DNA of 35,270 nt from Rhodobacteraceae bacterium PARR1 (lineage in GTDB: Bacteria > Pseudomonadota > Alphaproteobacteria > Rhodobacterales > Rhodobacteraceae), in contig NKIT01000025.1 of assembly GCA_002256185.1 (NCBI GenBank), positions 1-35,270 of the forward strand. Reading direction: 5' to 3'. Numbering within the stretch: the stretch's first letter is position 1; each line of letters starts with the position of its first letter. The notes under the pieces were generated by a model. That model made no database searches. It saw only the letters and a list, made by a program, of their open reading frames with translations, and was not told the origin of the DNA. This document shows positions 4,562 through 16,174 of the stretch, piece by piece. A program made the translations under genes and the position numbers.

Positions 4562-4636
4562 GGCCCGTTCGTCTATCGGTTAGGACACCTGGTTTTCAAC
4601 CAGGTAAGAGGGGTTCGACTCCCCTACGGGCTGCCA
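4562..4636 (+). tRNA. tRNA-Glu (anticodon TTC)
   Basis: The sequence folds as a cloverleaf. Acceptor strands are GGCCCGT (4562-4568) and ACGGGCT (4626-4632), with a first G:U pair, discriminator G at 4633 and an encoded CCA at 4634-4636. The anticodon stem is CCTGG/CCAGG around loop TTTTCAA, giving anticodon TTC at 4595-4597. The T arm has the usual GGTTCGACT core. The 3' end (4622-4639) is the attachment site used by the element that follows; the gene remains complete, so glutamate decoding is not disrupted. Confidence 0.96.
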
Positions 4637-4639
4637 CTT
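4622..4639 (+). repeat. attL core (18 bp, tRNA-Glu 3' end)
   Basis: CCCTACGGGCTGCCACTT, identical to 16109-16126. It comprises the last acceptor bases, the CCA and three bases beyond the tRNA. It lies immediately beside the integrase stop codon (4642), as is usual for tRNA-targeted tyrosine integrases. Confidence 0.9.
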
Positions 4640-4641
4640 CT

Positions 4642-5742
4642 TCATTTTTTCGCCTTCCTTTCAATAGGTTGCGACACCCTTGTGTCCAACCCATCCGAAA
4701 GGTTGGACAAGTTTCGTTCCGCTTCTGTGCTGGACAACCCGACAAACCCGCTATCGGCAAGCCGTGATCGATCCGCCTTTTTGGTGTAGGTCGCGCCTTC
4801 CTTGTTGGTCTTGTGGGCCATCACGGCGCGGATTTCGTCGGGTGACTTGCCCGCGTTCGCCATCAAGGTTGCAAGCGACTTTCGCAGCCCATGCGCCGAA
4901 CAAAGCGGGTTGCCTGCGGCCTTGCACTGATCCTTGAACCAGTTGCCCAAAGTCGTCGGCTTGTAGGCCAAGCCGTCGCCATGCGTGACGAACAGAAACT
5001 GGTCACGCGGGACATTGGCCAGTTCTGCGGCAAGTTCTTCGTGGATCGGCAGATCGGCCCCAATTCCCGTCTTGCCGCGCCTGTAGGTGATCCGATCACC
5101 CTGCACATTGCGCCAGCCCATCGCCGCCACGTCTTGCCGGGATGCGCCCGTCCAGAGGAACAGCATCATCGCCAGCCGGGCCTTGCTGCCCGTCGGATGG
5201 TGTTCCTTGAATCGGGCAATCTCTTGATCGGTCCAAGTGTGATAGCCGTCGGCGTTTTCCTTGCGCCTGTCAGCGTATCGGGCCGGGTTGAACGTCACAC
5301 CCATTTCCCGCTTGATCGCAAAGTTAAACAGCATGGACAGGTTCTTCTTGACCGTGTTCGCAGCGGTCGGGCCAGACTTCTTGCCCATAAGCGCTTCGAC
5401 GTGCTGGGTGCCAAACTTCGCAAAGGGCAGATCGCCCGCGACGCCGCGCAACCAGTCCAGTTCGCCCCGGATGCTGCGCTTGCGGCTTTCCGACAGGTTC
5501 CGATATTTTGGGCTGGCCAGATACTGTTCGATCAGCCAAGCCAAGGTGCCTTGGGGCGTTGTGCTGCGGTTCGGTGACTTTGCGCCGTCAATCGCCGCGT
5601 CATAGGCAGCACGAAACGCGACGGAGCCATACGGCCCCGGCAGATAGCAAGTGAAGCCCTTACTTCGAAACCGGAAACGGGTTTGGCCGTGCCGATCCAC
5701 GATCCGGGTCACGCCGGGATAAGGGTTCTTGCGTCGGATCAT
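4642..5742 (-). CDS. int: Tyrosine-type integrase of the element
   Basis: A 366-residue site-specific recombinase that catalyses integration at, and excision from, the tRNA-Glu 3' end. The N-terminal arm-binding region (about 1-60) is followed by a core-binding SAM-like domain (about 62-150) and the catalytic domain. Catalytic residues visible are Arg202 (WTGASRQDV), Lys224 (RRGKTG), His284 and Arg287 (HGLRK), His310 (MAHKTNKE) and nucleophile Tyr319 (GATYTKK), so it looks intact. The stop codon lies only three bases from attL. Its start codon overlaps the stop of the upstream small gene (ATGA), implying translational coupling. The coding end (4683-4709) contains two inverted copies of the element's GGTTGGACA motif. 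Confidence 0.95.
   Translation of the reverse strand: MIRRKNPYPGVTRIVDRHGQTRFRFRSKGFTCYLPGPYGSVAFRAAYDAAIDGAKSPNRSTTPQGTLAWLIEQYLASPKYRNLSESRKRSIRGELDWLRGVAGDLPFAKFGTQHVEALMGKKSGPTAANTVKKNLSMLFNFAIKREMGVTFNPARYADRRKENADGYHTWTDQEIARFKEHHPTGSKARLAMMLFLWTGASRQDVAAMGWRNVQGDRITYRRGKTGIGADLPIHEELAAELANVPRDQFLFVTHGDGLAYKPTTLGNWFKDQCKAAGNPLCSAHGLRKSLATLMANAGKSPDEIRAVMAHKTNKEGATYTKKADRSRLADSGFVGLSSTEAERNLSNLSDGLDTRVSQPIERKAKK
4683..4709. repeat. Inverted pair of GGTTGGACA motifs, left end
   Basis: TGTCCAACC (4683-4691) and GGTTGGACA (4701-4709) are perfect inverted 9-mers separated by nine bases, about 45-70 bases inside attL. The same 9-mer recurs at 5762-5770 and twice near attR. Likely roles are integrase arm-type sites or replication iterons; a hairpin at the end of int is a further option. 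It lies inside the integrase coding sequence. Confidence 0.6.
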
Positions 5743-5918
5743 TTCAGTAACCTGTCACAAGGGTTGGACACGGTAGAGGCTTCGGACTCGCCTTGGAAGA
5801 TGACGTGAGTTCCATCAGGCTTCACTTCAACTCTGCCGCCCTCATTGCCAGCGGCTTTCATCGCCTTGAGATAGCGAGTCAGTTCAGACTGTTTCAGAAG
5901 TGCGGGACGGTTTGCCAT
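5739..5918 (-). CDS. Small protein coupled to integrase, function unknown
   Basis: A 59-residue basic protein beginning MANRPALLKQSELTRYLKAM. Short proteins of this kind often sit directly upstream of integrases in Rhodobacterales prophages. I do not recognise a characterised domain, but the position and the predicted helix (LTRYLKAMKAAG) would allow a DNA-binding or excisionase-like role. The ATG at 5918 overlaps the TGA of the previous gene (TGATG), with AAAGG six bases before it; a GTG at 5921 is also possible. Its own stop overlaps the integrase start. A copy of GGTTGGACA (5762-5770) lies in its 3' part. Confidence 0.65.
   Translation of the reverse strand: MANRPALLKQSELTRYLKAMKAAGNEGGRVEVKPDGTHVIFQGESEASTVSNPCDRLLK
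5762..5770 (+). repeat. GGTTGGACA motif upstream of integrase
   Basis: A single copy of the 9-mer found at both ends of the element, here about 20 bases before the integrase start codon on the minus strand and embedded as GGGTTGGACAC. The 11-mer GGGTTGGACAC also occurs at 16063-16073 and, inverted, at 4682-4692. Possible integrase autoregulation or arm site. Confidence 0.5.
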
Positions 5919-6133
5919 CACATACCTTTAGAGGTTGAAAAGTTGATATTGCTGGGTCGGGGCGCAGAGGCGCGGCGGATACGGGTTTCCAGATCGGCAA
6001 GGGCGTTCGCCATTTCGGCGTCGCTGCCATATTCAACCCGCTTGCCCTCAAACATAACGACTCGTGTTGCACTTGCGCGCGCCCTGATCAGGGCGTCGCG
6101 CAGGGTTTCCAGTTCGGTCGGGTCAATCGCCAT
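5918..6133 (-). CDS. gpW-like phage head-tail joining protein
   Basis: A 71-residue protein beginning MAIDPTELETLRDALIRARA. The pattern of a helical Leu/Ala/Arg-rich N-terminus, a beta-hairpin (RVVMFEGKRVEYGS) and a C-terminal helix ending in LADLETRI is that of gpW-type head-completion proteins, which sit at the portal vertex and provide the surface for tail attachment. The frame is open upstream to 6181, but the ATG at 6133 follows the capsid gene stop by one base (TGATATG) and gives the family N-terminus. It is the last structural gene before the integrase. Its retention in an element without tail genes suggests that the heads are made ready to accept tails from elsewhere. Confidence 0.75.
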   Translation of the reverse strand: MAIDPTELETLRDALIRARASATRVVMFEGKRVEYGSDAEMANALADLETRIRRASAPRPSNINFSTSKGM

Positions 6134-6134
6134 A

Positions 6135-7874
6135 TCAGCCGTTCCGATACCAACCGCGATGGTCGATCCATGCCGCGCCAAAGTCCAAGCGGACCTTGAT
6201 CATCATGGCGTCAACCTCGAAGGCGACGGTCGTTTCCACCTGCGGGCCGGGTGCGCCTTCAAGATAGGCGTATTCCAGACCGTCGATGTTCGCCGGGTCC
6301 GCCGCCAGATACCATTGCGTCGCGTTGGTCAGGCGGGGTTCCACCAGAAGCGACAGCTTGGCGAAGGGGTTCACATCGGCGACGGCGGTTGCTGCCAGCG
6401 TGGTCAGCAACTGTTCACCGATGGTTTCGTATTCGGGCGGCACGATCAGGAAGCGGGGCGCGGCATTGATCGGCATCCCGTTTGCCGAAGTCTGTTTCCG
6501 CATCCGAACCCGCCCGGCGTTCAGGCTGGTGACGCTTGGCGCGGACGCCGCGTCAAGGTTGCCGTGGCCAGCGACGAACACCGCCAGACCGTCGCCCATG
6601 ATCGGGTTGCTGGTCAGTGCGGTGACAAGCTGCGAGTTCTCGAATTCACGCGCGGCAATGCCCATGCGGCGGCTGAAGTCTGCAAGCGCGTTCAGATCAT
6701 CGTTGATCCACATTTGGCGCGTGTAGGGGATCATGCTGCCGAAGGTTTGCAGGGTGTTCGTATTGGCCGACTCGGCAACCGAACCCATCGAATATTCGCC
6801 GCCTTCCAGAACCCGCCGAAGGGCCGGGGCATCGCCAAGCATATACTTGGTCTGCACTTTGAAGTTCGGATATTGCGTCTGGCGCGCAGCGGGGCGCAGA
6901 CCGGACGGGGCGGCGTCATAGGCGGTGCGAAGGCTGCGCCCGGCGCTATCGCCAAGGATGCCCGCCAGATCGCCCGTGACCATGCTGCCCGCGCGGGTGA
7001 ACACCTGCGCGTCAGACACACCCTGCAAGGGCTGGCCATGCCGCTTCATGACTTCCCGCACCACGTCGGGAAGGCGAATGTTCGCATATTGGCGCGCCGG
7101 GGCGGACAGTTCATGTGTCGGGTTCATCCGGGCGTGGATCGCTTCCCCGACACGCGCCGCGAAAACCGCCGGGTCGTTGTGGTCGAACGTGATCTGCGCC
7201 GTGGTGCGGGTGCGGGTCTGCGATTGCCGCTGCGCCATCGCAGCGAAGGCCAGTTCCCGTGCGGCTTCCGGCGTCGCCTCGGCGTCGATCTGCGCGTCGG
7301 TCCAAGCCCGGTCCAGCCCCGCCAGTTCGGCGATGCTGCGAATCTCGGTGTTCATTTCAGCGCGGGTTTGCACCTGCACTTCAAGTTCAGTGGTCGGCAT
7401 GGTGACTTCTCCATTTCTGAAATGTGCGCCGGGATCGGCGGGAACGGGAACGATGGACACTTCAATCGGCGTCCATCGGGTCGCGGTGCGAACCCGCTTG
7501 GTGCCGTCTTTGGCTTCGCGGGTCTGTTCGATGGTGTAGCCAATCGACAGCCCGCGCAGGGTGCCGTTGGCAACGTCGGTCATCACGGCTTGCGCCGGGG
7601 TGGATTCGCGGAACCGGATCACCACAAGCAAGCCTTCGGGCGTCATCCGCGCCGCCTCGATCACACCCAACTGATCGCGGGTCGTGTCGCGGCGATGCCC
7701 GTCCAGAACCGGGGCACCGACAAGCCGCGCAAGATCGACGCCGCGCAGGTCCAGAACCTCGGTGTAACCGGGGCGCGCAACGGGTGCCCCGGTCGAAACG
7801 ATTGCTTCAATCGTCCGGGCCTCTGCGCTGAAGGTGGCAGGACGCATGTTCGCCGCCCGAAGGTGAATGGTCAT
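6135..7874 (-). CDS. Prohead protease / major capsid protein fusion
   Basis: A 579-residue fusion. Residues about 5-155 form an HK97-type prohead serine protease (peptidase U35), with putative catalytic His60 (LDGHRRD) and Ser110 (LRGLSIGY) and the family strand PIEVSIVPVPADP. After a linker of roughly 60 residues, the C-terminal part (about 260-579) is a major capsid domain with FENSQLVTALTSNP, PRFLIVPPEYETIGEQLL, QWYLAADP, GLEYAYLEG and the ending RLDFGAAWIDHRGWYRNG. Fusions of this layout are known in tailed phages and are annotated as protease/major capsid fusions. The protein would build, mature and form the shell. It lies in the operon portal - cement - capsid - gpW. No truncation is seen. 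Confidence 0.92.
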   Translation of the reverse strand: MTIHLRAANMRPATFSAEARTIEAIVSTGAPVARPGYTEVLDLRGVDLARLVGAPVLDGHRRDTTRDQLGVIEAARMTPEGLLVVIRFRESTPAQAVMTDVANGTLRGLSIGYTIEQTREAKDGTKRVRTATRWTPIEVSIVPVPADPGAHFRNGEVTMPTTELEVQVQTRAEMNTEIRSIAELAGLDRAWTDAQIDAEATPEAARELAFAAMAQRQSQTRTRTTAQITFDHNDPAVFAARVGEAIHARMNPTHELSAPARQYANIRLPDVVREVMKRHGQPLQGVSDAQVFTRAGSMVTGDLAGILGDSAGRSLRTAYDAAPSGLRPAARQTQYPNFKVQTKYMLGDAPALRRVLEGGEYSMGSVAESANTNTLQTFGSMIPYTRQMWINDDLNALADFSRRMGIAAREFENSQLVTALTSNPIMGDGLAVFVAGHGNLDAASAPSVTSLNAGRVRMRKQTSANGMPINAAPRFLIVPPEYETIGEQLLTTLAATAVADVNPFAKLSLLVEPRLTNATQWYLAADPANIDGLEYAYLEGAPGPQVETTVAFEVDAMMIKVRLDFGAAWIDHRGWYRNG

Positions 7875-7892
7875 GGTTTCAGTTCCCGGTTG

Positions 7893-8225
7893 TCAGCGGA
7901 TCGCACCGTCAATCAGCACCTGCCCCACCGTGTCCGCCGCAAGGGCAGCGGCGAAGGCGGCACCGATGATCTTATTGCTGCCAACCGTCGTTGTGACGGC
8001 GCGGGCGGAGTTGTCCCAATAGAGGGTCTGGCCAAGGGTCCATGCCTGCGCGGCGGTCTTGGTCAGGCTGAAAACGCCCTGGCGCACAAGCACCACGTCG
8101 GCACTGATCGCAGCGGCACCTTGGGCGACGCCGATGATCGAACCGACTTGCGCCACCTGCCCCGAAGTCAGGGCATAGGGCGCGGGCAGCGTGACGTTGT
8201 TGCCAGAGAAAAGGGAATTTCGCAT
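7893..8225 (-). CDS. DUF2190-type capsid cement/decoration protein
   Basis: A 110-residue protein. The repeated short strands (MRNSLFSGNNVTLPAPYALTSG, VLVRQGVFSL, LYWDNSARAVTT, IIGAAFAAALAADTVGQVLIDG) match DUF2190, small beta-rich proteins encoded beside protease and capsid genes that decorate or stabilise heads. The frame extends upstream to 8306 but the ATG at 8225 begins one base after the portal stop (TGAAATG) and is preceded by CAGGAG. It is in the expected position between portal and capsid. The role is taken from the family; nothing is unusual in the sequence. Confidence 0.85.
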   Translation of the reverse strand: MRNSLFSGNNVTLPAPYALTSGQVAQVGSIIGVAQGAAAISADVVLVRQGVFSLTKTAAQAWTLGQTLYWDNSARAVTTTVGSNKIIGAAFAAALAADTVGQVLIDGAIR

Positions 8226-8226
8226 T

Positions 8227-9563
8227 TCAGACTCCTGTGGGTTTGGTTGCGCGGGCGAACGTGTCCGCCGCGATTTCTTCGTCCAGTTCTTCGATATCGC
8301 GGCCACGGCCTGCGACCACTTCGGCGCGGGACTTCAACCCCGCCTCAATGGCGCGGATATCGGAATTCGCTTCCTTCAGCGGGTCCACCCATTGCCAACC
8401 GGGGGCAACGAATTTGACGGCGCGATAATCGGCCAATTCGGCTTCGCTTGCGCCGATCTCGCCTGCCAATGCCTTGGCGTCGATCCAGCGCCGCCAGAGG
8501 GGGCGTAGCAACTGCGCTTCGATCAGAGTTCGTTGCAGCATTTCGGCGCGACGGCGGAATTCCAGCAAGCCGACACGGGCGCTTGAATAGTTGGTGCCCG
8601 ACAGATCGCCCGTCACCTGTTCATAGGTAAGCCCGACACCGACGGCAATTTCGCGTTGCTGGCCTTTCACGAATTCAACGGCCTGCGACAGACCTTGGCC
8701 GGGCTGCGAGAATTCAACCTCTGCACCGAAGGGCAGAACGCGCATAGCGCCCGGTTCAAGGCTCACATTCAAACTGCCGTCGGTTGACTCGAACCCCGCC
8801 GTGCCGCCTTCGGCGTCGCGCACAAAGCCCGTCATTAGGCTTTGCACCTTCAGCGTCATCAGCATGGCGTCGGACGCGGCGTCAAAGTCCGCCAGTTTCA
8901 GCAGCACCGGGGCAAGCCATGAAATGCCGCGCACCTGTCCGGGGAAAAGCTGGTCAAAGACGTGTAGCACTTCGCGCGCCGGAACCCGCACCGCTTGCCC
9001 GATCATCCCGAACGGGGTTCCGGGGGCATCGGGCAGAATGTGATAGGCGACGATCCGGTCGCTTGCGTCAAACTCCACCCCGGCAACGATGCGCGCGCCG
9101 TCGCCAAGGTCGCGGGTTAGGGACGGGTCGATCTGGTCGGCGGGCAGCGCCAAGGAACTAAACGCTGCCCGTCCTGATCCGTCGGCGTCGCTGCCACCTA
9201 CGGATGTTCTGATAAACGCCTCACCATCCCGCACAAGGGCGCGCACCGCGACGGGCAGCAAGGCCAGCATCTGCCCTTCAAACTCATTGTTCAGCGCCCG
9301 CCGTATGCCTGCGTCCGGGTGCTGCGAAAGCCCCTGCCAGCGAGTGCCGCAAGCCACGTCTCCACGATCCGCGCCGCCGTCGGGTTGTTCATGGACAGCG
9401 CCGCCGCGCGGGCCTTGGCTGCCGCGCGGGCCGCAAGGATCGACGCTTGCGGCGCGTTCATCATGGGCGAACCCTGCCAGCGCCGCCCGCCGCCGCCAGC
9501 TTCGATCTGACGCTTCTGGGTCGGCCCCGTCATGCGGTCGAAAAGGCGGGCAAGGAAACTCAT
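8227..9563 (-). pseudogene. Lambda-type portal protein, interrupted by a frameshift
   Basis: The N-terminal part (start ATG 9563: MSFLARLFDRMTGPTQ, then NNPTAARIVETWLAALAGRG) is in one frame and stops at 9291. The rest (QHPDAGIRRALNNEFEG, VRALVRDGEAFIR, GGSDADG, ILPDAPGTPFGMI, VPAREVLHVFDQLFPGQVRGISWL, YEQVTGDLSGTNYSSARVGLLEFRR) continues in another frame to 8227. Adding one G to the four-G run on the minus strand (9331-9334 on plus) joins them into a normal phage portal of about 445 residues (lambda gpB family). The frame that opens at 9576 contains non-homologous residues before this point, so it is not the real start. The portal forms the dodecameric DNA gate and receives terminase. ATGA overlap with the MerR-like gene. 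Real mutation or sequencing error cannot be separated here. Confidence 0.85.
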
Positions 9564-10153
9564 TCTGCGCCGCCATCCAAAAGGCGCGCCGTCACGACAT
9601 GGGTTTCAAGGGGCATCTTGGCGCGGCTGTGAACCAGCTTGGCCACGGCCTCAAGGTCGATCAGAAGCCCGTGGAAAACGCCTTCCTGATCGACCAATTC
9701 GTGAAGGTCGGACAGGTCTGCGCGAAGGTATTGGGCGATGCGCCCTTCCAAGTCGTCGCGTTCGGGCAAGGGCCAGAACACATAGCGAACTTTGCTGTGC
9801 GATGCCCAGCTTTCGATGCGCAGCCGTTCTTCGGATTCAGCTTCGGGCGAGTCGGCCTTGATTGCGACGGAACCGGGCAAGCCCATCAACTTCGCGGTCG
9901 CATGGTGTGCCGCAAGTCCAGAGAACGCTTGCAAGCCCTTGATGCTGATTCCACCTTCGGTCAGCCGCTGCATGATCGTCATGCGAACCACTTCGCTGAT
10001 CGAAAATCGCGCGTTCCGTTCCCCTTCAATATGGGGAAGCAACCCGCGCTTGCGCCAGTGCCGTTGAAGAACCGGGTTCACGCCAGAGATTTCGGCGGCT
10101 TCACCTGCGCTGAACTCAGCCTGATCGGTGTATTCGATGTGGTTGTTTGACAC
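9560..10153 (-). CDS. MerR-like DNA-binding regulator of the head operon
   Basis: A 197-residue protein with an N-terminal MerR-type winged helix: FSAGEAAEISGVNPVLQRHWRKRGLLP (about residues 14-40) is the recognition HTH and wing, followed by ARFSISEVVRMTIMQRLTEGGISI (about 48-71). The C-terminal half has no effector-binding motif that I recognise. The start is GTG at 10153 with GAGGG six bases upstream. Its stop overlaps the portal start (ATGA), so regulator and head genes are one transcript. The promoter region (10175-10215) has a TTGACA -35 box with a dyad in the spacer, the arrangement MerR-family activators act on. Autoregulation and control of the head operon are inferred. Confidence 0.8.
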   Translation of the reverse strand: MSNNHIEYTDQAEFSAGEAAEISGVNPVLQRHWRKRGLLPHIEGERNARFSISEVVRMTIMQRLTEGGISIKGLQAFSGLAAHHATAKLMGLPGSVAIKADSPEAESEERLRIESWASHSKVRYVFWPLPERDDLEGRIAQYLRADLSDLHELVDQEGVFHGLLIDLEAVAKLVHSRAKMPLETHVVTARLLDGGAE

Positions 10154-10174
10154 GCTGCGCCCTCACTCTGCATA

Positions 10175-10215
10175 GTGATAGCCAGCACCATACGCCACAT
10201 GGTGTCAACTATCAC
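10175..10215. promoter_or_regulatory. Nested palindrome and MerR-type promoter
   Basis: GTGATAG-CCAG-CACCAT (10175-10191) and ATGGTG-TCAA-CTATCAC (10199-10215) are inverted repeats with 13 of 17 matching positions around a 7-base centre. On the minus strand TTGACA (10208-10203) forms a perfect -35 box. The CACCAT-N7-ATGGTG dyad fills the following spacer, and a GCTATC-like -10 box lies about 20 bases on. A lengthened spacer holding a dyad is characteristic of promoters activated by MerR-family proteins. The same DNA overlaps the two most upstream possible starts of the divergent cargo gene. Confidence 0.6.
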
Positions 10216-12469
10216 CAATGATGGCGCGCAGTCAGTTGCTGCGAGGGTCGACAGATGGTTGACCCCCAGTCCGCAACAAGCCAAAGTTGAAAAGGCGCAC
10301 AAAAGCGGACCAACCAACAAGGAAAACCCATTGAGTAAAGAATTACCAGTTCGCAGCGAAAATGAAATATTTTCCGACTTGGAAGCCCTTTGCAAACAAG
10401 ACGGCTTCTCCCACGCTATTGCTGCGCTATGCTTCCGAGACAATTTCTTTGGAATCAAGAAAGAGATAACCGGCAAGCAAATAGCGGACCGGCGTTCGTT
10501 CGAGAGACTCATACGAACAGAAATATCGACCTTGATTGGCTGCCTTGCTAAACACCCTATTTCAATCGAACTGCCCGAACCTGCGATACTTCAGGCAATG
10601 TGTGACCATGCGGAGAGACTTCTTAACGAAATTCATGGCGCGATGATTGCCGATGCCTATAAGGATTTCTCAAAGGACATTAACCCACTAACGACAGGGG
10701 AAGCTATAAGAGAAGCGGTCTTTTACGCAACAGAATCTGCTTACTCATTTCAGTATCGTGACTTCTCCCCTACTCGATACAAAAATGATGACGCATGGAT
10801 CTCTGAAAAATTTGGATTCAATAGCCAAGAAGCAAGCATACTGCTTCGGACGATTCTAGACTTCCAGTCAGAGAAGGCTATGATCCACCTAGAGTCACTA
10901 CGGAGTGTTTCTCCTGATAAGTGGACGATGCTACCTGCGTTCATGTTTACTTTGGATGAAATGGTTGAGCATTCCAAACTATCCGGCGCAGTAGTCAAAT
11001 GTTTTTTAGACGCATTCTCCACTGAATCAAGCGGCGGAAATCCTGCCTTTGTGGACATCAATTCTTTCAACGAAACAAATGCTAAACCAATAATCGAGAC
11101 AAACGGTTCTTATTTGCTATTTCAATTTGTGAGCCTTGCAGAAGCGGTCTACGAAGCGCCATTCTTCTGGATGCTTCAAGATGCGACTTACAGGAACACT
11201 GCATCCACTAATCGTGGGGCCTTTACAGAACAGTTTACGTTTGATGCAATGCGCAGAATCTTTGGCGATGATCATGTTTTTCAGAACATTGACCTGTATG
11301 ACGGCAAAAGCAAAGTCGGTGAGGTGGATGTTCTTGTTTCCTACGGCGAGTATGCCCTAGTTTGCCAAGCCAAGTCACAAAAGCTTACACTTGAGGCACG
11401 AAGAGGCAATCTTCCCAAAATCCAAGATGATTTTCAGAAGGCCATACAAAAGGCATACGATCAGTCTGTTGATTGCGGGTCTGCAATCCTGAGCGGTAAA
11501 GTCGAACTGAGAGATTCAACGGGAACGCCCCTACTTATCCCAAGACCGCAACACATTTTTCCCATAACAGTGCTTTCAGATCACTTCCCGGCGCTAAGCG
11601 TGCAGGCTCGCCAGTTTCTCAAGTTGAAATCGACGAAGCAGGTTCATAATCCCCTATGCACCGACGTTTTTACGCTTGATGTGATCTCAGAGTTAATGCC
11701 ATCGCCAATCCGGGCACTAGCTTACTTGGAACGACGCTCGAATTACTATGAGCGAATAATGACTACCAACGAACTTGGATTGTTCGGTTACTTTTTGAAA
11801 TTTAATCTTTGGTTGGATAACGACACGGATCTTCTCAACTTGGATGATAGTTTGTCAGCGGACGTGGATGCTGCCATGCTAGTTAGAAGAGAAGGTATGC
11901 CGGGAAAGAGCACACCAGAAGGTCTTTTAACAAAATATCAAGGTTCATTCATTTATGGAATAGTTGACGAGATTGAGCGGGACCCAAACGCCTTGTGCGT
12001 TGAATTGGGGTTGACACTTCTTGAGTTTAGCGGTGACGCAATCGAAAATATCGGCACATTGGTGCGACGAATGTGCGCAGATACAAAAAGAACAGGTAAG
12101 CAACATGATTTAACACTTCCTATCGAAAACCGTTCCTCAGGCTTGACCTTCCACTGCAACTTCCTTCCGACAAATCATGCAAGGCAACAGTTGCGCGACC
12201 ATATGCGAAAGCGCAAGTATAGCCAGAAGGCAAGCAGTTGGATCGGCTTAGTTCTTGAGCCGGGAACAGCCAAAGTGCGATTTGGGGAGTATGTTCGCGC
12301 ACCTCATGTGTTTGACTATGCACTGGAAGGTATTGTTGCGTCTGCACCCCCATTGACGAAGACACAGGATATTCTTCGGAGTCCCTTTGCCAAAAGAAGT
12401 GTTGGTCGTAATGGCCCTTGCCCTTGTGGTAGCGGAAAGAAACATAAGCGATGCTGTGGCATGAATTAG
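10199..12469 (+). CDS. Cargo protein: PD-(D/E)XK-like nuclease core with C-terminal SEC-C motif
   Basis: About 756 residues, not assigned to a named family. Counting from the ATG at 10199, Glu344 (GAFTEQFTFD), Asp377 (GEVDVLV) and Gln390-x-Lys392 (ALVCQAKS) form the E..D..QxK layout of PD-(D/E)XK nucleases with a Mrr-like Gln variant. The C-terminus is a SEC-C zinc motif, NGPCPCGSGKKHKRCCG, with Cys741, 743, 752 and 753. The N-terminal third is mainly helical and has no recognised motif. It is the only plus-strand gene of the element, is clearly AT-richer (28 G+C in the 60 bases 10861-10920) and separates terL from the portal operon, like cargo inserted in a satellite. An anti-phage role is inferred. 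Starts are uncertain: GTG 10175 and ATG 10199 lie in the palindrome, while TTG 10331 has AAGGA at seven bases. Confidence 0.8.
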   Translation: MVSTITNDGAQSVAARVDRWLTPSPQQAKVEKAHKSGPTNKENPLSKELPVRSENEIFSDLEALCKQDGFSHAIAALCFRDNFFGIKKEITGKQIADRRSFERLIRTEISTLIGCLAKHPISIELPEPAILQAMCDHAERLLNEIHGAMIADAYKDFSKDINPLTTGEAIREAVFYATESAYSFQYRDFSPTRYKNDDAWISEKFGFNSQEASILLRTILDFQSEKAMIHLESLRSVSPDKWTMLPAFMFTLDEMVEHSKLSGAVVKCFLDAFSTESSGGNPAFVDINSFNETNAKPIIETNGSYLLFQFVSLAEAVYEAPFFWMLQDATYRNTASTNRGAFTEQFTFDAMRRIFGDDHVFQNIDLYDGKSKVGEVDVLVSYGEYALVCQAKSQKLTLEARRGNLPKIQDDFQKAIQKAYDQSVDCGSAILSGKVELRDSTGTPLLIPRPQHIFPITVLSDHFPALSVQARQFLKLKSTKQVHNPLCTDVFTLDVISELMPSPIRALAYLERRSNYYERIMTTNELGLFGYFLKFNLWLDNDTDLLNLDDSLSADVDAAMLVRREGMPGKSTPEGLLTKYQGSFIYGIVDEIERDPNALCVELGLTLLEFSGDAIENIGTLVRRMCADTKRTGKQHDLTLPIENRSSGLTFHCNFLPTNHARQQLRDHMRKRKYSQKASSWIGLVLEPGTAKVRFGEYVRAPHVFDYALEGIVASAPPLTKTQDILRSPFAKRSVGRNGPCPCGSGKKHKRCCGMN

Positions 12470-12498
12470 AGGAGCGGACAACAGAAGGAACAGCAATG

Positions 12499-14277
12499 TC
12501 AACGCTTCATCCAGCTTGACGCCAGCACCGGGGCGCGCTTCGGCGCGGGGGCAGCCTCGGTCGAAAGATCGGCGCGGCGCTGTTCGTAGTCCAAATTGAG
12601 CAATGCCCGCGCGGCAAAGGCATAGACCACACAGTCAAGCGCCTCTGCCCGCCGCCCCGGTATCCGAACGAAGCTGCGCGTCGGCTGGCCACGGGTGTAG
12701 CGCACCACAGACCGTTCGGACGCAAGCTGTTCAAACCAGACCGGGGGCAGATCGGCCGAAAACCGGAAGCTGCCTGCCTGCGCCAGCCGCCCGAACAGTT
12801 GCAGTTTCACCGTGTCCACGCCGATGATCCACAAGCGCGCGCCCGTCTTGGTGGTCGATCCTGCCCGTTCGATCATTGGACGGTTGCCGGGCGCGCCCTT
12901 GATCGCCAGCACCTTGCGCCGCGTCCGGGGCGTGGCAAAGGCGGTGACGTGGTGCATGGAAACCCCGTCGCCCGCGTCAATCGCGCAGGCATCCACCCCG
13001 ATCTTGCCGCCAAGCGCATGGGGAAAGCGGGCACCGATCAGCCCTTCCAATTCGACCCAAGTTTCTTCGGCGTCATACTGCCCCCAGATCACCCGATGCC
13101 CAAGCACAAGCGCCACGCCGCCTTCGGTCCAGCCCAGATAGGTGACTTCTAGGCGGTCGTGTTGCACGTCCACTCCAACCGTCAAGGCCAGCACTTCGGC
13201 GGGAACCGCGGCAAGCCCGAAAGGTTCGGCTCGGGCCATCAGTTCATCTTCGGCCAGCTCATCGCCTTCACTGCGCCAGCCTTGGCCAAGGATCGTGTTG
13301 ACGAAGGTTTGCAGCGTCGTCGGATCGTCTTTCGCCTGGACGAATTCCACCGCCAGCTTGCCCCATGCTGCATTGGTGTGAAGGCTGATCAGGGCATTCA
13401 TGCGGAACCCCGCATGGCCTCTGACTTCGGGCCTTGTGGCGCGCCACGCGCCCGCCGCGACCATATCCGGCTTGTGCCGTTCCGACACCTCTGCGGCGCA
13501 ATGGGGGCACCGCCAGCGGGCCGTTTCGGGCGCGCCTGCATCCCAGACGATATCGGGCCACAGAAGTTCGCTCATGGCCCCACATTCGGGGCACGGCACT
13601 TCATAGATTCGGGCGTCGGATTGGGCATAGGCGCGCAGAACATGGCTGGTTTCGTCGTGAACCGGGGTGCTTCCCAAAACGATCTTGCGGTCGGGAAACG
13701 ACATGGTGCGGCGTTCGGCCAAAAGGATCGGCGACCCTTCAGCGGTCGATTCCATGCCGTCGGCTTCGTCCATGAACAGAACCCGGACGTTGTGACGGCG
13801 CAGGTTGCGGGGTGCCTTCGCTGCGACCACTTTCAACGATCCGCCGGGGAAGCGGCGCGACAGAAGCGTGTTGCGCCCGGACTCGTCCTGTTCATCCGAC
13901 AGGGCAGCGGCAAGCGCCGGGGAAGCCCCGAAGATCGGTTCGATATCCGATACCATGTAGTCGCGGCAATCGGCCTCTGCGGGCAGAAGGCAGAGGATCG
14001 GTGCGGGTTCATTGGCCACGAAGGACGCAAGGGCGCTGGTCAGAAGCGTGGTGAACCCCACCCGGACGGGCTTCACCAGAGTCACCCGTTCAATTTCCGC
14101 GTCGCCTATGGCGTCGGCAATTTCGCGCTGAAAGGGCCAAAGGCGAACCGGACCGGGCAAGGCGGACACCCCGTCGGGCAGCACGATTTCCCGTTCGATC
14201 CATTCCGACAGGCGCAGGCGCGGCGGGGGGATCAGGGCGCGCAGCGCCTGTTTCGTGATCTGGTCAAGCGTCGGCAT
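12499..14277 (-). CDS. Phage terminase large subunit, GpA family
   Basis: A 592-residue packaging motor that translocates DNA into proheads and cuts it. The N-terminal ATPase has a lambda gpA-like deviant Walker A (LVKPVRVGFTTLL, about 67-79) and Walker B VLFMDEADG (Asp170-Glu171). A Cys-rich insert with CPECG and CPHC follows (about 230-265). The C-terminal nuclease domain contains GVDVQHDRLEVTYLGW and ends near EALDCVVYAFAAR. The frame opens at a TTG (14283), but the ATG at 14277 is preferred; it overlaps the terS end by 14 bases. It is convergent with the cargo gene, 29 bases apart, with no obvious terminator between. The protein looks intact. Confidence 0.93.
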   Translation of the reverse strand: MPTLDQITKQALRALIPPPRLRLSEWIEREIVLPDGVSALPGPVRLWPFQREIADAIGDAEIERVTLVKPVRVGFTTLLTSALASFVANEPAPILCLLPAEADCRDYMVSDIEPIFGASPALAAALSDEQDESGRNTLLSRRFPGGSLKVVAAKAPRNLRRHNVRVLFMDEADGMESTAEGSPILLAERRTMSFPDRKIVLGSTPVHDETSHVLRAYAQSDARIYEVPCPECGAMSELLWPDIVWDAGAPETARWRCPHCAAEVSERHKPDMVAAGAWRATRPEVRGHAGFRMNALISLHTNAAWGKLAVEFVQAKDDPTTLQTFVNTILGQGWRSEGDELAEDELMARAEPFGLAAVPAEVLALTVGVDVQHDRLEVTYLGWTEGGVALVLGHRVIWGQYDAEETWVELEGLIGARFPHALGGKIGVDACAIDAGDGVSMHHVTAFATPRTRRKVLAIKGAPGNRPMIERAGSTTKTGARLWIIGVDTVKLQLFGRLAQAGSFRFSADLPPVWFEQLASERSVVRYTRGQPTRSFVRIPGRRAEALDCVVYAFAARALLNLDYEQRRADLSTEAAPAPKRAPVLASSWMKR

Positions 14278-14764
14278 TGCCAAGTTCCTGCAAGGCGTCG
14301 CGCAATTCGCGGTCGATCATCGTCACGTCGCTGGTGGTCAGATGCTGCATGGACTGGCGCAGCCGGGAAGGCACCGCCAGAAGCCGGGAACGAAGGGCGC
14401 GCAGGGTATCGGACCAAGCCCGTTCCACGTCGCTTGCCGGGACGTATTCGCCGCGCAGAACCGCGTTCTTCAGGGCCTGCGCGTCGGCTTGTTCCCGTGC
14501 CAGCCGCGCCCGTTCGCTGGTCAGGTTCAGCACCTGTTCTTCGCCGCCGCGTCCGCTTGCCGTCTCGCGCAGACTGGCGATGTAGCGGCGGGTGCTTTCT
14601 TCAAGGTCATAGGCATCATGGCCAAGACGAACCACGATATCGCGCTTGCCAAGGGTGGTCAGCATCCCCGGCGTGATGCCGAACAGGTCGCAAAGGTCGG
14701 AACCGCCAATGCGATGGACGGGCTTGTCGCCCCCCAGCCCCGGCAGTTCCGACATGATCCGCAT
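14264..14764 (-). CDS. Terminase small subunit, Nu1-like
   Basis: A 166-residue protein. The N-terminal winged HTH (VHRIGGSDLCDLFGITPGMLTTLGKRDIVVRLG, about 16-48) resembles lambda Nu1/gpNu1-type packaging proteins that recognise the cos or pac site. A long charged helix follows (LTSERARLAREQADAQALKNAVLRGEYVPASDVE), the usual oligomerisation region, then RLLAVPSRLRQSM. AAGGGG lies about eight bases before the ATG at 14764. It overlaps terL, so the two are translationally coupled. In satellites this subunit often confers specific packaging of the element's own DNA; that role is inferred here. Confidence 0.88.
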   Translation of the reverse strand: MRIMSELPGLGGDKPVHRIGGSDLCDLFGITPGMLTTLGKRDIVVRLGHDAYDLEESTRRYIASLRETASGRGGEEQVLNLTSERARLAREQADAQALKNAVLRGEYVPASDVERAWSDTLRALRSRLLAVPSRLRQSMQHLTTSDVTMIDRELRDALQELGNADA

Positions 14765-14826
14765 CTTTTAACCCCTTGTAAATTCTTACATAGCTTCAAA
14801 CATCGCGCCTCTGCCCCCCGTATAGG

Positions 14827-15126
14827 TCAGGGACGGGAAGGACCCAAAGTCGGCAATGGGCGGTCAATCAAGGCAAGGTGCACCGGCTTGCCGCGCTTGC
14901 CGAGATTGTCAATGGTCAGCCAACCCGCCTGTTCCAACTGGTTCAGTGCCCGCTTCGTGGTTCGCGGCGACACACACAACGCCTTAGCGAGTGCGTCGAT
15001 ATCCGGGGCGCGAGTATTGCCTAGGAAGTCGCTGATCAGCACCGCGCCCAGAACGCGCGCAGCCGGGGACAGGCCACGGTCATGCATCACGGCCCGAAGC
15101 CATCTGTCCTTCGCTTGTTCAAGCAT
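14827..15126 (-). CDS. Small winged-helix protein, paralogue of the replication protein domain
   Basis: A 99-residue protein that is almost entirely one winged helix: LSPAARVLGAVLISDFL, then IDALAKALCVSPRTTKRALNQLEQAGWLTI (recognition helix and wing). The same pattern occurs in the upstream protein (LSPMARLLAHVLATQF, TLADALATSVDTIKRALRDLAATGWLI), so the two share a duplicated domain. It overlaps that gene by eight bases and lies 62 bases before terS. It may act as a regulator or replication accessory. The exact function is not known to me. Confidence 0.75.
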   Translation of the reverse strand: MLEQAKDRWLRAVMHDRGLSPAARVLGAVLISDFLGNTRAPDIDALAKALCVSPRTTKRALNQLEQAGWLTIDNLGKRGKPVHLALIDRPLPTLGPSRP

Positions 15127-16075
15127 TGGCCCGGTCCTTCATCTTGCGGGAAAAGACGCGCGCCCATTTCTCAGCCAAGCTGACTTCGAACCGATCACCT
15201 TCGCGGCGTGGCGGTAGGGTGCAGGGCACCGCCCATCCATCTTCACCATTTCTCGGCCCGATCTCGGCCAGTGTCGGAAACCCATGACCCGTAAGCCAAT
15301 CGTTCCAAGCAGCTTCAGCGTTACCGCCGCGCTTGATCGTGAAAAGGACACCAGTCCATGTTTCAGGTGCCGTCGCCCGGTCGTAAGACGTCCAGTCCAT
15401 CCGGCCAGAAGAACGCTTCGACAGATCGGTTTCAGATAGCTGGCCAGCCCTTTGGATATTCTTTGGATCAGCCTTTATATGAGAAGGTGCAGCCTTGCCC
15501 CCTTTTCCGCGCATATCTGCCCCCTTTTGCGTTGCCCCTTCGCGGTTACAAACGGGGGCAGGCTTGCCCCCCTTTTTGTGCTGCGTGGTTGGTGCTTGTG
15601 CCGCTTTCGGGCGGTCATGGCCGGACGCTTCCGGCCCCTTTGGGCAGATCATCGGCACCACGTTGTTGCCGCCCAGAAAGAAGATTTCAGACCGATTCCC
15701 GCGCCCGCGTCCTTCGGTCTTGATCAGCCATCCCGTGGCCGCCAGATCGCGTAGGGCGCGCTTGATGGTATCGACGGACGTAGCAAGGGCATCGGCCAAG
15801 GTATCGGTGCCGGGCGCGCAATGCGCCGTCTCATGGTGCGAAAACTGCGTTGCGAGAACATGGGCGAGAAGCCGGGCCATGGGCGACAGATCAGGGTCAC
15901 CCGTGATCGCTTTGAGCCATCCCCAGCGGGCACGGTTCCAGTTGCCGTTCTGATCAACACGCCTTCCAAGGATCGGTGCGTCGGCGCTTCCGTTTTCAGC
16001 ACCGTCAAATCGGTTGGACAAACGCCGATTTTCGCCATTGTTTTCAATGGTGCCAGTTGGCAGGGTTGGACACAC
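15119..16075 (-). CDS. Winged-helix protein, probable replication initiator of the element
   Basis: About 318 residues if the GTG at 16075 (AAGGGA five bases upstream) is the start. An RHH/Rep-like N-terminal winged helix (WLKAITGDPDLSPMARLLAHVL to AATGWLIKTEG) is followed by a low-complexity basic linker (PKAAQAPTTQHKKGGKPAP to GGKAAPSHIKAD) and a C-terminal domain (TWTGVLFTIKRGGNAEAAWNDWL to EKWARVFSRKMKDRANA). This layout is common for phage or plasmid replication proteins, but no catalytic motif is seen, so the role is inferred. The frame is open through attR to 16168 in the host flank, so the upstream ATG there cannot be the native start. Two GGTTGGACA copies lie in the first codons. Confidence 0.7.
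   Translation of the reverse strand: MCPTLPTGTIENNGENRRLSNRFDGAENGSADAPILGRRVDQNGNWNRARWGWLKAITGDPDLSPMARLLAHVLATQFSHHETAHCAPGTDTLADALATSVDTIKRALRDLAATGWLIKTEGRGRGNRSEIFFLGGNNVVPMICPKGPEASGHDRPKAAQAPTTQHKKGGKPAPVCNREGATQKGADMRGKGGKAAPSHIKADPKNIQRAGQLSETDLSKRSSGRMDWTSYDRATAPETWTGVLFTIKRGGNAEAAWNDWLTGHGFPTLAEIGPRNGEDGWAVPCTLPPRREGDRFEVSLAEKWARVFSRKMKDRANA
16012..16073. repeat. Two GGTTGGACA motifs and a palindrome, right end
   Basis: GGTTGGACA occurs at 16012-16020 and 16064-16072 as direct repeats 52 bases apart, 36-115 bases inside attR. Between them is CCATTG-TTTT-CAATGG (16035-16050), a palindrome with six-base arms. The mirrored presence of the 9-mer at both element ends fits integrase arm-type sites or iterons; the palindrome could be an operator for the replication gene. 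Confidence 0.6.
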
Positions 16076-16108
16076 CAAGTCCCTTGATATTGCTAGAGAA
16101 GTGCCCTT

Positions 16109-16126
16109 CCCTACGGGCTGCCACTT
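16109..16126 (+). repeat. attR core (18 bp)
   Basis: CCCTACGGGCTGCCACTT, identical to the tRNA-Glu end at 4622-4639. The flanking base before it differs (T versus C) and similarity stops after it. No other part of a tRNA gene is here, so this is the displaced attachment half left by integration. Confidence 0.9.
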
Positions 16127-16174
16127 TTCCTTCCTCACAAAAGATGCCGCCGCATGGTAAAGGCGCACGGTGCA

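Follow-up and report, generated by a model that had tools for sequence, protein, structure and literature searches.

A plus-strand gene between the terminase and the MerR/portal operon of an integrated element in Rhodobacteraceae bacterium PARR1 probably encodes a stand-alone anti-phage nuclease, which travels as exchangeable cargo of a satellite-type element that has a capsid gene of its own; the protein seems to be a compact relative of Upx. This Upx-like defence reading is preferred because the predicted fold resembles Upx, the nuclease core is invariant, the cargo is swapped among sister elements, one relative (in locus L055) lies in a P2-type hotspot, and the gene has no recurrent partner. 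As a result, an unassigned "SEC-C/NERD" protein becomes a testable candidate, with Upx as its structural model, a single gene of 712 aa, and defined residues to mutate. The window referred to below is the whole stretch of DNA that was analysed, i.e., 35,270 nucleotides of contig NKIT01000025.1.

The satellite-type element and its cargo slot

The element spans about 11.5 kb (4562-16126), is integrated at tRNA-Glu, and encodes its own capsid, portal and terminase; together with the integrase and the att repeats, these genes bear out the first-pass annotation, which had taken the region for a satellite. Its backbone features are as follows.

4562..4636, plus strand: tRNA-Glu, the attachment gene (ARAGORN)
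4619..4639, no strand: attL, 21 bp, from the tRNA-Glu 3' end (direct repeat of 16106-16126, 20/21)
4642..5742, minus strand: tyrosine integrase (Pfam PF00589, phrog_1)
6135..7874, minus strand: fused prohead protease and major capsid protein (PF25209, PF04586; phrog_4523)
7893..8306, minus strand: small gene that accompanies the head module in sister elements (tblastn)
8227..9576, minus strand: portal protein (PF05136, phrog_21)
9560..10153, minus strand: MerR-type regulator (PF13411)
12499..14283, minus strand: terminase large subunit (TerL), gpA type (PF05876, PF20454; phrog_15)
14264..14764, minus strand: terminase small subunit (TerS; phrog_57)
15119..16168, minus strand: replication initiator-like protein (phrog_270), with its true start probably inside the att-bounded element
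16106..16126, no strand: attR, 21 bp (repeat of attL; homology to sister L069 ends at 16126)

Pfam and PHROG scans of the element ORFs other than 7893-8306 (137 aa), 14827-15126 (99 aa) and small overlapping ones gave no tail or lysis gene, and the element has little room for a tail module. A search for the empty attachment site matched the right flank in 17 of 19 same-genus genomes, the element's own included, but revealed no tRNA in the nine loci scanned and thus no demonstrable empty site. The stretch 4562-16126 is thus a capsid-encoding satellite-type element in an alphaproteobacterium, with relatives in numerous viral contigs of roughly 10-12 kb.

A TerL scan of viral contigs yielded 48 related loci, in 41 of which a portal gene could be assigned to TerL in the expected order and no more than 6 kb away; of the other seven, four offered no pair and three differed in order or distance. 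In ten loci, one of them partial, TerL was at least 92% identical, and the TerL-portal gap was measurable in nine of these. The family gene occupies the gap of L068, and an identical 147-aa Arc-type gene is shared by L070, L074 and L112; the remaining gaps contain a pair of genes of 468 and 230 aa (L069), a 594-aa gene (L072), small ORFs (L073), a 196-aa ORF in the same orientation as the terminase (L076), or no ORF longer than 100 aa clear of the MerR region (L071). Relative to both L069 and L071, the homologous backbone is interrupted between 10217 and 12499-12501 by different sequence. The gap between the terminase and the MerR/portal genes is thus supported as an exchangeable cargo slot, and the comparison of cargo at the same position, which had been proposed as a check, found other genes there, including one resembling NsnA of Menshen.

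The latter gene (L072:2667-4451, 594 aa) combines GmrSD_N with Schlafen AlbA_2 and matches the PADLOC model of Menshen NsnA at 5e-33. It was the clearly defence-like protein among ten sister cargo proteins submitted to PADLOC; a 138-aa protein of L097 matched a restriction control-protein model at 1.5e-18, and eight of the ten gave weak matches (three) or none (five). Since several sister cargoes match no known family, the exchangeable site beside the terminase of capsid-encoding satellites is a place in which further defence genes are worth seeking. As a separate observation, the low-GC two-gene cargo of L069 (4134-6225) is without a PADLOC match and without a Pfam match above cut-off.

The cargo gene itself lies in one uninterrupted open frame on the plus strand (10175-12469), while the integrase, capsid, portal, MerR, TerL, TerS and replication genes all occupy the minus strand. 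Its GC content is about 0.45, compared with 0.59-0.65 in the element's 1-kb bins outside the gene, and its GC3 is 0.45, compared with 0.70-0.76 in the terminase, portal and capsid genes; hence the description of a long, AT-richer single gene on the opposite strand stands. The start at 10199 assigned in the first-pass annotation does not, because ATG 10199-10201 lies inside the backbone (10198-10217 recurs at 19 of 20 bases in sisters L069 and L071, the last 16 being identical), residues 1-49 counted from that start have pLDDT below 50 in the AlphaFold model, many homologues begin at about residue 45-52 of the 10199 frame, and AAGGA at 10319-10323 precedes TTG 10331. In L069 and L071, which carry other cargo or none, the position of ATG 10199 reads ATA. 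Translation is therefore more likely to start at TTG 10331, giving 712 aa, and the cargo edges are moved to about 10218-12498.

10202..10217, no strand: backbone block of 16 bp at the cargo edge, identical in L069 and L071 and containing TTGACA on the minus strand
10218..12498, no strand: exchangeable cargo segment (between the last backbone base shared with L069/L071, 10217, and the return of homology at 12499-12501)
10331..12469, plus strand: cargo nuclease coding sequence, 712 aa, from the likelier start TTG (homologue starts, pLDDT, backbone over 10199, AAGGA)

The block at 10202-10217 was not found in the remaining close sisters. Its minus-strand TTGACA may possibly belong to a promoter of the MerR operon, and promoter and terminator scans gave matches at chance level. 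Between the copies of the family gene in the window and in L006, seven synonymous and seven non-synonymous codon differences were counted, so that purifying selection is not apparent over this short distance.

Domains and predicted fold of the cargo protein

The protein, about 712 aa long, is predicted to start with a helical domain, followed by a PD-(D/E)XK core of the QxK type and an alpha/beta part, and to end in a SEC-C zinc motif. The residue numbers below follow the 10199 frame.

10349..11188, plus strand: predicted N-terminal helical domain, residues 51-330 (AlphaFold models; top Foldseek match Upx 9wuf, E 0.17)
11228..11374, plus strand: PD-(D/E)XK-type core E344...D377...Q390-x-K392 (row conservation; weak NERD and weak Can2 matches)
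12407..12460, plus strand: C-terminal SEC-C zinc motif CPCGSGKKHKRCC (Pfam SEC-C at 1.2e-5, above cut-off; 12/16 rows)

Both the nuclease core and the C-terminal SEC-C motif had been recognized from the single sequence, and both are upheld. Residues E344, D377, Q390 and K392 are invariant in all 16 aligned rows, the window counted; in a wider alignment, E, D and K recur in 27 of 27 rows and Q in 25, with E replacing it in two archaeal rows. In the model, a helix and strands surround the E...D...(E/Q)xK core in the arrangement of a PD-(D/E)XK nuclease. SEC-C (PF02810) scores 25.5 bits, passing the Pfam cut-off of 20.4, and occurs in 12 of the 16 aligned rows.

Profile searches, which had been suggested as a check, returned no clear housekeeping or structural phage family, and that assignment was rejected: Pfam, PHROGs and NCBIfam gave just the SEC-C tail, a weak NERD match (PF08378, 16.6 bits, under the cut-off of 22.1), a weak match to phrog_30399 (7.3e-5, over the nuclease core, function not assigned there) and an insignificant HAS-barrel match. 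The NERD profile also found no match in the element's own genome. Similarly, a known named defence system was rejected by profile, as PADLOC returned only SEC-C-tail matches (CBASS E2, PDC-S12) and weak nuclease matches for the window protein.

The full-length AlphaFold model, built from 12 sequences, has a mean pLDDT of 78.4 and a pTM of 0.79. When the whole model was compared with 350,542 PDB chains by Foldseek, the sole match with E < 0.001 was Upx (9wuf; E 9.7e-6, probability 1.00, 617 columns), which superposes with a TM-score of 0.30 by query and 0.20 by target, an rmsd of 14.6 and 8% identity. Chains of Can2 follow at ranks 2-11, from E 0.013. The N-terminal domain was also folded alone (residues 51-330, pLDDT 81.2), a fragment that excludes the nuclease core; Upx again came first, with an E of 0.17 that is not significant alone, a probability of 0.89 and a TM-score of 0.42 by query, and the next match appeared at E 2.9. 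Structure prediction, another check proposed at first pass for the nuclease fold and the helical N-terminus, thus points to Upx as the best solved match. The one match with E < 0.001 in a viral structure library, of TM-scores just 0.11 and 0.15, was set aside.

Upx is a single-gene defence system, named as an uncharacterised PD-(D/E)XK protein. By sequence, it was not matched in any of four sequence searches of the PDB or two scans with PADLOC, the former of which may lack 9wuf in their sequence set and the latter an Upx model. The earlier statement that the architecture matches no named system therefore holds by profile, but the resemblance of the fold to Upx gives the architecture some precedent. 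Upx is listed among defence systems in the literature, and the matches listed for open-access PMC, outside which subscription papers lie, included no paper on a NERD plus SEC-C defence protein and none on an Upx structure.

Distribution and neighbourhoods of the family

Relatives of the cargo gene occur in five loci of named genomes (99% identity in one, a Gemmobacter assembly), in 12 viral-contig loci (99% identity again in one) and in 35 plasmid records, of which 19 are from Agrobacterium and the last four are haloarchaeal at 25-26% identity; no match was obtained among INPHARED phage records. Several of the plasmid homologues are named NERD or nuclease-related by NCBI. The family ranges over Proteobacteria, Bacteroidota and one cyanobacterium, with distant haloarchaeal relatives. 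Its gene is sparse and patchy, because few genomes match either in draws or among relatives: of 398 genomes drawn from the phylum, five matched at E <= 1e-20, the window's own included, and among 195 relatives, just the own genome and one other matched beyond the C-terminal end. A wider profile without SEC-C raised the number to eight of the same 398 genomes at E <= 0.001, and two of the three added relatives (745 and 777 aa, the latter a weak match at 2.2e-4) also end in SEC-C. These two genes (L142:577-2814 and L143:337-2670) are distant relatives that suggest a wider superfamily. Disrupted copies occur in five of 30 loci, in addition to a Salmonella plasmid copy in two pieces, as would be expected of a dispensable gene.

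The surroundings of the homologues give no indication of a fixed partner. In a test covering ORFs of at least 70 aa within 5 kb (blastp E <= 1e-6), no neighbouring gene family recurred in more than two of 30 loci, 18 of which had at least 3 kb on both sides; a two-gene system was accordingly rejected. The L055 homologue, 34% identical, belongs to a P2-like prophage, where it is flanked by gpA (phrog_91) on one side and by portal and terminase genes on the other. In PMC9122126, the gpA-gpQ interval of E. coli P2-like phages is described as an anti-phage hotspot, with old and tin in P2. Other copies have phage terminase and portal genes (L050), a phage major head gene (L051), a tail fibre gene (L057) or a tape measure gene (L059) nearby. 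A flank of the distant L059 copy (14089-15107) also contains coding sequence related to the capsid and small head genes of the element described here, and zonular-occludens-toxin-domain genes occur near the Vibrio plasmid copy (L046:14563-15864) and, as a homologue, beside the L054 copy (L054:4096-5532), which suggests filamentous-phage surroundings.

Individual copies are accompanied by defence genes. For instance, an Avs2 gene (PADLOC E 0) follows the copy on an Azonexus plasmid (L041:12566-16837), and a Mokosh MkoA gene (4.7e-181) precedes that on a Rhizobium plasmid, with one gene between (L039:5057-8122); moreover, a Vibrio copy adjoins the candidate system protein PDC-S20 (PADLOC 1.7e-85), and a Sphingomonas neighbour partially matches PDC-M54A (PADLOC 5.8e-11). 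At E <= 0.001, PADLOC matched four of ten neighbours from seven loci versus two of ten controls from seven plasmid stretches (one strong, CARF at 1.6e-190, and one weak), a comparison that is only suggestive because both sets were hand-picked. Another scan of seven usable neighbour proteins found no defence system, one homing-endonuclease model, and several phage or housekeeping genes. Defence keywords in plasmid neighbourhoods were present at 5 of 11 loci versus 4 of 11 controls under a strict list, and at 10 versus 4, of 11 each, under a broad list that was not made blind. Defence neighbours are not clearly enriched. A DUF4238 gene also sits immediately after a disrupted copy of the family gene on a Bradyrhizobium plasmid (L042:12425-13285); defence by one DUF4238 protein on its own is reported in PMC9122126.

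Interpretation and comparison with known systems

The anti-phage role proposed at first pass is plausible as a candidate function, with a relative in a published hotspot and Upx as the best solved match. In such a system, the helical N-terminal domain might keep the nuclease inactive until a cue derived from the phage is bound, whereupon the freed nuclease would cut DNA, while the SEC-C tail, putatively zinc-binding, could help to bind a partner or nucleic acid. The outcome would be either selective destruction of phage DNA or cell death (abortive infection), and we lean slightly towards a gated, non-specific nuclease that aborts infection. There is about an even chance that the protein represents a new single-gene defence family, forming a compact branch of an Upx-like superfamily with members in haloarchaea as well as in Proteobacteria, Bacteroidota and cyanobacteria; in this family, the helical N-terminus would be a shared phage-sensing module with varied tails (SEC-C here), and spread would proceed by satellites, P2-like and other phages, and plasmids.

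A defence nuclease of a general NERD-like or Can2-like kind, unrelated to Upx and resembling it only through a shared nuclease core and helical bundles, is unlikely. Can2 takes Foldseek ranks 2-11 and, when SEC-C is excluded from the profile, scores best among the nuclease matches (E 0.015, core motif aligned), and NERD is the sole Pfam nuclease match, below cut-off; yet the N-terminal fragment, which has no core to share, also ranks Upx first and leaves a gap to the next match, though at E 0.17.

A role restricted to the exclusion of other mobile elements (plasmids or competitors) or of the helper phage, rather than general defence against phages, is improbable: satellites elsewhere carry anti-helper genes, and homologues reside on plasmids (35 records, 19 from Agrobacterium) and phages, but the family also occurs in non-viral genome contigs and in the P2-type anti-phage hotspot. 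A non-defensive DNA-processing enzyme, or a part of the satellite's own life cycle, would likewise be compatible with a nuclease core and with a gene that adjoins the terminase; it is nevertheless highly improbable, as sisters with near-identical terminase are without the gene and carry others, and the family occurs far outside such elements.

Among known elements, the one in the window resembles capsid-forming PICIs (cf-PICIs) in its genes: it has an integrase, a tRNA att site, and its own terminase, portal and capsid. Capsid-forming PICIs have been described with an average size of 14 kb in PMC10803314 and PMC11389934, compared with about 11.5 kb here, and the host is an alphaproteobacterium, outside the main cf-PICI hosts given in PMC10803314. 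Turning to the protein, several homologues carry NERD or nuclease-related names and PF08378 matches locally over the core; however, the match stays under the cut-off, and the large helical N-terminus and the SEC-C tail lie outside that domain. Shedu has a DUF4263 nuclease domain, which was absent from the Pfam matches of the window protein at E <= 0.1. Can2, a cA4-activated nuclease acting with type III CRISPR, shares the aligned core motif (profile E 0.015, fold E 0.013), whereas the window protein is without a CARF domain in the Pfam scan; CARF_PDDEXK models match weakly in two of 16 family rows. The Upx chain, at 1212 aa, is longer than the window protein of about 712 aa, with 8% identity, low TM-scores and no sequence match found, yet both the complete model and the isolated N-terminal domain have Upx as their top Foldseek match.
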